A stretch of DNA of 56,792 bases, from the NCBI GenBank assembly GCA_029882355.1, contig JAOUKV010000021.1, positions 1-56,792 of the forward strand, written 5' to 3'. Shown here piece after piece: positions 33,848-34,604 of this stretch (positions are counted from its first letter, which is position 1; the number at the start of each line of letters is the position of its first letter). A model generated the notes under the pieces. It was not told the DNA's origin and did no database searches. It saw only the letters and a program-made list of their open reading frames with translations. This DNA comes from Gammaproteobacteria bacterium. Lineage in GTDB: Bacteria > Pseudomonadota > Gammaproteobacteria > SZUA-229. A program made the position numbers and the translations under genes.

Positions 33848-34372
33848 TCAACCTTCTTTCTGATCGCGAACAGCGGCCACAGTGCGAACAAGTTTCGCGT
33901 GTGGCTCGTTGAGTGTACGTACGAATTTCTCGATTGGTGCTTTCATTACCGCCATAAGCAGAGCAATAGCCTGATCACGGTTAGGTAATTTAGACAAGCG
34001 ATCAAGCTGCTCAATTGGAAGCACTTCGCCACCAATTGCAATCACCTTGGCAATTAACTTGTCATGTTCTTTCGAAAACTCACTTACGAGACGAGCCGCT
34101 GCACCTGGATCTTCCTGTGAGAACGCCATTAATAATGGCCCCACCAAAGAGTCCTGCATGCAGGCAAACTCGGTACCCTCAACTGCGCGCTTAGTCAAAG
34201 AATTCTTGACTACACGTAGATAAACACCTTCATTACGCGCCTTAACACGTAATTCAGTCATTTCTACTACGCTTAAACCGCGGTATTCAGCTGCTATAGC
34301 TGAATGCGCACCGGCAGCAATCGCAGACACCTCAGCGACAATACTTTTCTTGCTTTCAAGATTTAGTGCCAC
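33848..34372 (-). CDS. rplJ: 50S ribosomal protein L10
   Basis: Base of the ribosomal stalk; in complex with L7/L12 it binds its own leader to repress rplJL. 174 residues (MALNLESKKSIVAEVSAIAA, AEYRGLSVVEMTELRVKARN). The start codon is GTG (34370-34372) with AGGAG nine bases upstream. The upstream RNA has both an L10-leader-like fold and a terminator; see those entries. Confidence 0.98.
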   Translation of the reverse strand: MALNLESKKSIVAEVSAIAAGAHSAIAAEYRGLSVVEMTELRVKARNEGVYLRVVKNSLTKRAVEGTEFACMQDSLVGPLLMAFSQEDPGAAARLVSEFSKEHDKLIAKVIAIGGEVLPIEQLDRLSKLPNRDQAIALLMAVMKAPIEKFVRTLNEPHAKLVRTVAAVRDQKEG

Positions 34373-34426
34373 TTTAGCTCTCCTAATTAAGCATGAACTG
34401 ATTTTAAAAAATCAATTCAGCCAAGT

Positions 34427-34451
34427 AAAAAGGCTGCATTATTATGCAACC
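34427..34451 (-). terminator. Intrinsic terminator inside the rplJ leader
   Basis: On the minus strand GGTTGCAT (34444-34451) pairs with ATGCAGCC (34432-34439; one G-U) across a four-base loop, followed directly by TTTTTAC (34425-34431). It stands 54 bases before the rplJ start and after the L10-leader-like region, the position expected of an attenuator. Confidence 0.75.
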
Positions 34452-34545
34452 CACCTACGGTTAACTTTGCAGTACCACACAAAGCCTCACCATCTGCGTA
34501 GGAAATTAAGCAACTCAAAGAGCTACACCTACGGTCTTTGACGAC
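34452..34545 (-). ncRNA. L10 leader-like cis-regulatory RNA
   Basis: The minus-strand RNA contains GACCGTAGGTG (34526-34536), an internal AGCTC-TTT-GAGTT hairpin, then CCTACGCAGATGGTG (34488-34502). CGTAGG pairs with CCTACG, and the AGATGGTG side belongs to the kink-turn arm known from bacterial L10 leaders, where L10(L12)4 binds. The 10-base ACCGTAGGTG recurs at 34452-34461 just before the terminator. Recognition is by conserved sequence pieces and location upstream of rplJ. Confidence 0.75.
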
Positions 34546-34569
34546 ACCGATAACTCGGCTGTCAAATAA

Positions 34570-34604
34570 TTGAGACATAAATGACATGGTCATTTATGTC
34601 TCAA
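34570..34604 (-). repeat. Perfect 16-base-pair inverted repeat after rplA
   Basis: TTGAGACATAAATGAC (34570-34585) and its exact complement (34589-34604) separated by three bases, 38 bases after the rplA stop. On the minus strand TTATTTGACAG follows. AT-rich and lacking a good T run, so it is only a weak terminator; it may be a 3'-end stabilising or RNase III-cleaved hairpin separating rplKA from rplJL. Confidence 0.75.

Follow-up and report, generated by a model that had tools for sequence, protein, structure and literature searches.

The rplJ leader and its surroundings

The analyzed window, the whole stretch of DNA under study, is a contig of a gammaproteobacterial genome; it comprises 56,792 bases and carries on its minus strand nusG, rplK, rplA, a leader, rplJ, rplL and rpoB in this order, with products read from the translations of the open reading frames. 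The leader (34641-34373, minus strand, as are all leader features below) lies directly upstream of rplJ-rplL, the position of an L10 (rplJ) leader. The gene for ribosomal protein L10, rplJ (33848..34372), was assigned from its open reading frame and translation, with rplL and rpoB after it; it starts with GTG at 34372 and is preceded by the Shine-Dalgarno motif GGAG (34380..34383). Among the matches listed, the closest relatives of the source genome are mostly environmental genome bins.

Read 5′ to 3′, the leader contains a 5′ hairpin, H0 (TTTGACAGCCGAGTTATCGGTGTCGTCAAA, 34537..34566), whose 5′ arm CAGCCGAGU (34553..34561) is also one strand of a predicted long-range helix, LR, and whose 3′ arm CGGUG (34545..34549) can pair with CACCG further downstream (the C2 helix). 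The predicted L10(L12)4 aptamer follows (34489..34535), with a first copy of ACCGTAGGTG (copy 1, 34535-34526), UUAAU (34509-34505), CCTACG (34502-34497), then CAGATGGTGA, and the kink-turn strand AGAUGGU (34495-34489). A second copy of ACCGTAGGTG (copy 2, 34461-34452) contains an ACC that can pair either with the kink-turn GGU (the hub) or with the H0 3′ arm. It abuts hairpin T (GGTTGCAT-AATA-ATGCAGCC, 34451-34432), which is followed by the U-tract TTTTT (34431-34427) and, immediately 3′ of it, by the second LR strand ACUUGGCUG (34418..34426), identified by RNAalifold and pair counts. A distal hairpin, D (34390..34422), appears in the minimum-energy fold and the genus consensus, and GGCUG is common to D and LR. 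Every element named in a preliminary description of this leader is thus present (the L10-leader elements, the second ACCGTAGGTG, the CCTACG between the copies, and the hairpin with TTTTT), as is the stated distance of 54 bases from the TTTTT to the GTG of rplJ.

We note a perfect palindrome (34570-34604, 16 bp with a 3-nt loop) between rplA and H0. By reading, several relatives carry unrelated, hairpin-like sequences at the same place, just before TTTGACAGCC, and the palindrome is possibly a processing site or the rplKA terminator.

Leader sets

The class-wide set drew on 80 loci of 105 found and 30 loci of 32 matching genomes, with a further 28 new loci and 100 stretches taken from the best matches listed for 244 matching genomes; it is an incomplete sample, leaning to L10 proteins most like that of the window. 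Altogether 236 leaders were extracted. Duplicates and leaders shorter than 150 nt were dropped, as were L177 and L228 for ambiguous orientation; 15 other ambiguous leaders were oriented by the start codon alone, and 13 leaders with no recognized aptamer lie outside the 205 counted below. In the complementarity (25/147) and complement (5 + 21/166) counts, “family” denotes leaders with the same 5′ hairpin as the window, and the family’s L095 and L042/L270 type, which have another 5′ hairpin, are grouped with the others. Of the 34 family genomes in which an L10 was matched, 28 are represented in the 28-leader set, identical leaders being counted once; outside it are L089 (33 nt of upstream sequence only), L272, L095, L270, L273 and L274, the last four with another 5′ hairpin.

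One record titled as an Acidobacteriota MAG (L076) encodes an L10 63% identical to that of the window behind a gammaproteobacterial-looking leader, a probable misbinning or mislabelling.

A predicted L10(L12)4 aptamer

In the 28 family leaders, the helix between copy 1 and CCTACG, together with AC:GU, is 99.6% paired and has 23 cells changed on both sides. When this L10 helix is forced, UUAAU stays unpaired, leaving the unpaired UAA of an L10 aptamer. The helix is therefore supported by covariation, while the kink-turn is assigned by motif, and both the kink-turn and the UAA are read by analogy with PMC4538822. Leader anatomy and helix covariation agree with the preliminary description in placing an L10-binding fold before rplJ, binding itself being predicted. 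Judged by its anatomy, the leader is the gammaproteobacterial form of an L10 leader.

The Rfam L10_leader model (RF00557) gave no match at the leader up to an E value of 10. In a covariance check with this model, the E. coli leader was likewise missed among the control genomes, which indicates that RF00557 is unrepresentative of this leader group.

Within the aptamer, UUUCCUA (34505-34499) can also pair over 7 bp with UAGGAGA at the Shine-Dalgarno region (34385-34379). Both the free minimum-energy fold and the genus consensus contain this pairing; its mean probability is only 0.46.

Hairpin T as a candidate terminator

Potential terminators were scored with our own implementation of a d’Aubenton-Carafa-type score with a threshold of 0. 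Hairpin T scores 5.6. Only five rows score above 0 on both strands of the 56,792-base window, and the other four (6547+ and 6560-, the two strands of one palindrome, 48165- and 24681-) occupy three places between long open reading frames; 24681- falls after the open reading frame that follows rpoB, presumably rpoC. Hairpin T therefore stands out beyond chance and yet is the weakest of the five, a credible though weak candidate terminator. A consensus scan, which returned 11 terminator-like sites in 6 kb against 5.4 expected, also includes it.

The hairpin itself is kept among relatives, with both-side changes in 6 of its 8 pairs in an alignment of 14 leaders, for which the shuffle control covers the hub arm and the hairpin together. 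The U-tract is not kept, in the genus or in the family. In relatives’ leaders the bases after the hairpin read, among others, UUUUU, UUUGU, UUUUA, UGUUC, UUGUUA, GUUA, UAUA or CUGAAG. Across the five genus leaders the scores are 5.6 (window), -28.7, -0.7, -29.9 and -24.5, the window leader alone being above 0. Conservation of the terminator, a check put forward in the preliminary description, thus holds for the stem with its compensatory changes and fails for the U-tract.

Terminators as a class-wide feature were considered and set aside, being enriched but sporadic. Four or more consecutive Ts behind a hairpin that follows the aptamer occur in 12 of 205 leaders, against 3.0 in shuffled sequences and 2 on the opposite strand, and a looser definition finds 52 of 205, against 13.7 shuffled and 9 antisense; only 5 of the 205 score above 0, the window leader ranking third. 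Such ends are scattered across lineages, for example in the Methylococcaceae leaders L046 and L069. A hairpin and U-tract beside an L10 site do not in themselves make an attenuator. Hairpin T may terminate weakly or partly in the window species, with no demonstrated dependence on L10; as it is one of the leading terminator candidates in the window, such termination may be more than drift.

In three Methylococcaceae leaders (L046, L069 and L062), a hairpin of unrelated sequence followed by TTTT or TTTTTT lies at the same place in the leader, and L046 has the best terminator score of the 205 (20.8). These leaders may suit the study of L10-linked termination better than the window does.

The proposed pairing of CCTACG with copy 2

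In the B. subtilis leader, L10(L12)4 favors termination by way of an anti-antiterminator, an antiterminator and a terminator that overlap, the first two sharing 8 nt and the last two 5 nt (PMC4538822, in part). As in that leader, an L10 aptamer with kink-turn and UAA lies here upstream of a hairpin and U-tract; unlike there, copy 2 and hairpin T share 0 nt. The preliminary description had read a switch from this layout, in which CCTACG pairs either with copy 1 in the L10 fold or with copy 2 as an antiterminator. The two copies do compete for CCTACG, and to this extent the pairings exclude each other, but neither pairing stands in the way of the terminator, since hairpin T begins where copy 2 ends and the two have no base in common.

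Folding with each pairing forced revealed no switching. With ViennaRNA, the mean pair probability of hairpin T was 0.98 in the free fold and when the L10 helix, the CCTACG:copy 2 pairing or the hub was forced. For nascent RNA ending just past the U-tract, it was 0.91-1.00 in five genus leaders across three states (free, L10, CCTACG:copy 2). The CCTACG:copy 2 pairing itself has a mean probability of 0.008 in the free fold of the window. An alignment of relatives gave no sign of covariation in this pairing either: 284 of 500 shuffles scored at least as high with 14 leaders and 493 of 500 with 28 leaders, where 73.3% of cells were paired.

All five genus leaders carry, downstream of the aptamer, a complement of CCTACG (0.9 expected), a result that favors the switch, but these five are close relatives. 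Elsewhere in the family such a complement turns up in 1 of 21 leaders (3.1 expected), and outside it in 44 of 166 (45.2 expected), so that class-wide the complementarity is at chance (50/192 against 49.2). In a group of nine leaders around L022, copy 1 has changed in step with its partner, which now reads UCUC(A/G)CG, while copy 2 is still GYAGG in 8 of the 9.

CCTACG:copy 2 is therefore rejected as an antiterminator on account of the absence of overlap with the hairpin, the unchanged hairpin probability, the lack of covariation and the chance distribution. Nor do close relatives preserve the whole B. subtilis-like arrangement, since the U-tract is not kept in the genus and neither feature is kept outside it. 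Lack of conservation of the terminator or of the second motif in close relatives had been named beforehand as evidence against the switch, and this is largely what we find: the complementarity is kept in the genus, the U-tract, weaker in relatives, is not. Taken together, the preliminary description is partly supported, for the leader and the hairpin and not for the switch.

A predicted long-range helix that competes with the 5′ hairpin

RNAalifold, applied to 14 leaders, omits H0 and assigns other partners to its arms, ACUUGGCUG to the 5′ arm and CACC of copy 2 to the 3′ arm; with 28 leaders, LR, the aptamer helix and GGU:ACC are retained. LR consists of 8 bp between AGCCGAGU in the H0 5′ arm and ACUUGGCU just past the U-tract, spans about 130 nt and is possible in 28 of the 34 family leaders. 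In the 28-leader set, 221 of 224 cells are paired (98.7%). The three compensated cells come from two lineages (A-U to U-A in L008; A-U to G-C and G-C to U-A in L104), and the three unpaired ones from L008, L011 and L260. On any measure at most 1 of 500 shuffles scored as high, and slid versions of the helix reached at most 49.1% paired. Because the H0 5′ motif decided which leaders entered this set, the conserved 5′ strand in part reflects that selection; neither the 3′ strand nor any compensated cell played a role in it. By reading, L272, which is outside the set, has both LR strands, whereas four of the 34 (L095, L270, L273 and L274) have no H0 5′ motif and carry another 5′ hairpin. Complementarity between upstream and downstream segments averages 23.1 against 16.1 shuffled in the family (25 leaders) and is not above shuffle in the 147 leaders outside the family group (17.1 against 16.9). 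We therefore find LR to be a new, family-specific long-range element around hairpin T.

LR excludes the inner stem of H0 and brackets hairpin T. H0 is also conserved (99.0% of cells paired in 28 leaders, a figure that 36 of 500 shuffles also reach); its covariation is uninformative because most of its pairs never vary. Conserved and mutually exclusive, H0 and LR are what a switch would show, other than the one proposed. In the window LR is not the predicted minimum, at -62.5 kcal/mol when forced against -67.1 in the free fold, a difference of 4.6 kcal/mol; with the L10 helix forced, the values are -62.1 with LR and -65.9 without. LR would consequently need protein, tertiary contacts or kinetics to form.

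The two pairings that accompany LR are less distinct. The C2 helix, which would join copy 2 to the H0 3′ arm, reaches 89.6% paired in the 28 leaders, with 15 of 500 shuffles as high and 101 of 500 as high on both-side changes, a modest support overall; in the window itself it forms 4 of 6 pairs. The GGU:ACC hub is only weakly supported, at 86.4% paired but with 89 of 500 shuffles as high, and a 5-nt complement arises easily by chance (161 of 192 leaders have one, against 128.4 expected).

A relay from LR to the Shine-Dalgarno was also considered. Blocking the LR 3′ strand raises exposure of the Shine-Dalgarno from 0.24 to 0.70 in the window; across the 28 leaders exposure falls by more than 0.1 in eight and rises by more than 0.1 in ten, so the relay is unsupported, the changes being inconsistent. 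A further candidate, ACUUGGCU as an anti-ribosome-binding site (AGCUAAAGU), was dropped, as by reading it is not kept in L008 or the L022 group.

A model for the leader and its alternatives

On balance, and with moderate confidence, we favor a gammaproteobacterial L10 leader that probably represses translation, with a family-specific long-range fold, a hairpin that serves as a structural arm, and possibly weak termination. Free L10(L12)4 would bind the kink-turn aptamer, in which copy 1 and CCTACG...GAUGGU come together, and would repress rplJL, by kinship with E. coli most likely at translation. Copy 2 would be kept for pairing of its ACC(G) with GGU elements, in the kink-turn strand or the H0 3′ arm, and not for CCTACG, and hairpin T would be a conserved structural arm between copy 2 and ACUUGGCUG. 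In the free minimum-energy fold the kink-turn GGU is paired with the ACC of copy 2, and since L10 needs this GGU, its binding should release copy 2 and favor opening of H0 and formation of LR. In the window species the linker after hairpin T is UUUUU, and partial termination would thus be possible. The aptamer helix, hairpin T, LR and the lack of hairpin switching are computed; L10 binding, the level of repression and the order of events we infer.

An extension of this model, which we put forward only tentatively and regard as rather unlikely, is a strand exchange by which the leader would work in this family. The copy 2 freed by L10 would pair with the H0 3′ arm, the H0 5′ arm would reach ACUUGGCUG, and the state of LR, not the aptamer alone, would carry a signal toward the rplJ start, across a distance for which a 2024 review (PMC10931766) sees no explanation yet in E. 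coli. In species with a U-tract the exchange could also act on transcription. As the LR 3′ strand is made after the U-tract, LR itself presumably cannot prevent termination there. The competition of LR with the 5′ hairpin offers, in one lineage, a concrete and mutable candidate for repression from far upstream.

Three alternatives assign hairpin T a terminator role. Attenuation of the B. subtilis type, in which L10 stabilizes copy 1:CCTACG, precludes the CCTACG:copy 2 antiterminator and so promotes termination at the hairpin, draws on the motif layout, the terminator-like score above zero and the complementarity in all five genus leaders; against the missing overlap, a hairpin equally probable in all three states, an antiterminator virtually absent from the free fold and devoid of covariation, and clearly negative scores in three of the five genus leaders, we consider it highly improbable. 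L10 could instead modulate termination by another route, if GUAGG of freed copy 2 extended the hairpin through UUUAC of the U-tract and altered its efficiency, an AUGGU:ACCGU hub occupying part of GUAGG in the unbound leader. Such an extension does appear in the minimum-energy fold with the L10 helix forced, where the free fold has the hub instead. These are constrained folds of one sequence, GGU:ACC stays paired when only the CCTACG helix is forced, the genus alignment, by reading, keeps the outer GU:AC pairs and not the inner ones, and the core hairpin forms equally in both states; this route is accordingly distinctly unlikely.

Alternatively, the hairpin might have nothing to do with L10 and act as a constitutive partial terminator that throttles transcription between rplKA and rplJL to a fixed degree. 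Its place among the five window rows above threshold and the class-wide excess of hairpins with at least four Ts speak for this, while its score, the lowest of the five, the values of -0.7 to -29.9 in its genus relatives and the 5 of 205 leaders above zero make it unlikely. A stem that is conserved where the U-tract is not, and that forms in every state, counts in favor of the main model, as do the covariation of the L10 helix and the support for LR.

Related leaders and RNA families

The E. coli rplJL leader (L111) resembles that of the window in lying between rplA and rplJ, in its aptamer motif AGACCGYAGG...UUAAU...CCUGCGUAGAYGGUGA and, by reading, in a downstream CACCGU able to pair with ACGGUGA. 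It differs in that no hairpin downstream of its aptamer makes a good terminator (the best scores -62.8) and, by reading, in a local 5′ hairpin with no AGCCGAGU/ACUUGGCU pair. According to part of a 2024 review (PMC10931766), L10(L12)4 represses rplJL translationally in E. coli, by a mechanism from a far-upstream site that is called unresolved there.

The main text of a premature-terminator study (PMC2965389) has neither “L10” nor words beginning with “rpl”, and rplJ was not found in the main text of a Pseudomonas aeruginosa 3′-end study (PMC8297930). In part of a Shewanella study (PMC2659441), rplJ is among the ribosomal leaders, but its row does not bear the T mark given to rpoB, which we take to mean no predicted terminator. 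Among the titles and abstract openings listed (for two of the queries, 20 of 351 and 20 of 53 papers), from a source with most subscription journals outside it, none describes attenuation that depends on L10 in a gammaproteobacterium.

Below an E value of 0.05, a single Rfam family matches the leader: Arrc08 (RF02858, “Actinobacillus sRNA 08”), which covers window positions 34609-34381 and matches over its full length (1-270, 46 bits, E 1.1e-10). Despite the full-length alignment, 46 bits are far short of the gathering score of 219. Arrc08 has been described as a trans-acting Actinobacillus sRNA between genes of an operon (PMC4986893, in part) and detected in cells by RT-PCR (PMC10708910, in part), a method that does not distinguish a terminated leader from a longer message. 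It is filed as an sRNA gene, yet the end of its model resembles the rplJ ribosome-binding site. Because the E. coli rplJ leader is matched over the full length too (L111 2171-2461, 45 bits), Arrc08 looks, from these matches, like the mislabelled rplJ leader of the Actinobacillus group. A further Rfam family filed as an sRNA, P26 (RF00630, “Pseudomonas sRNA P26”), has a 74.5-bit match in E. coli immediately after rplL (L111 3395-3456).
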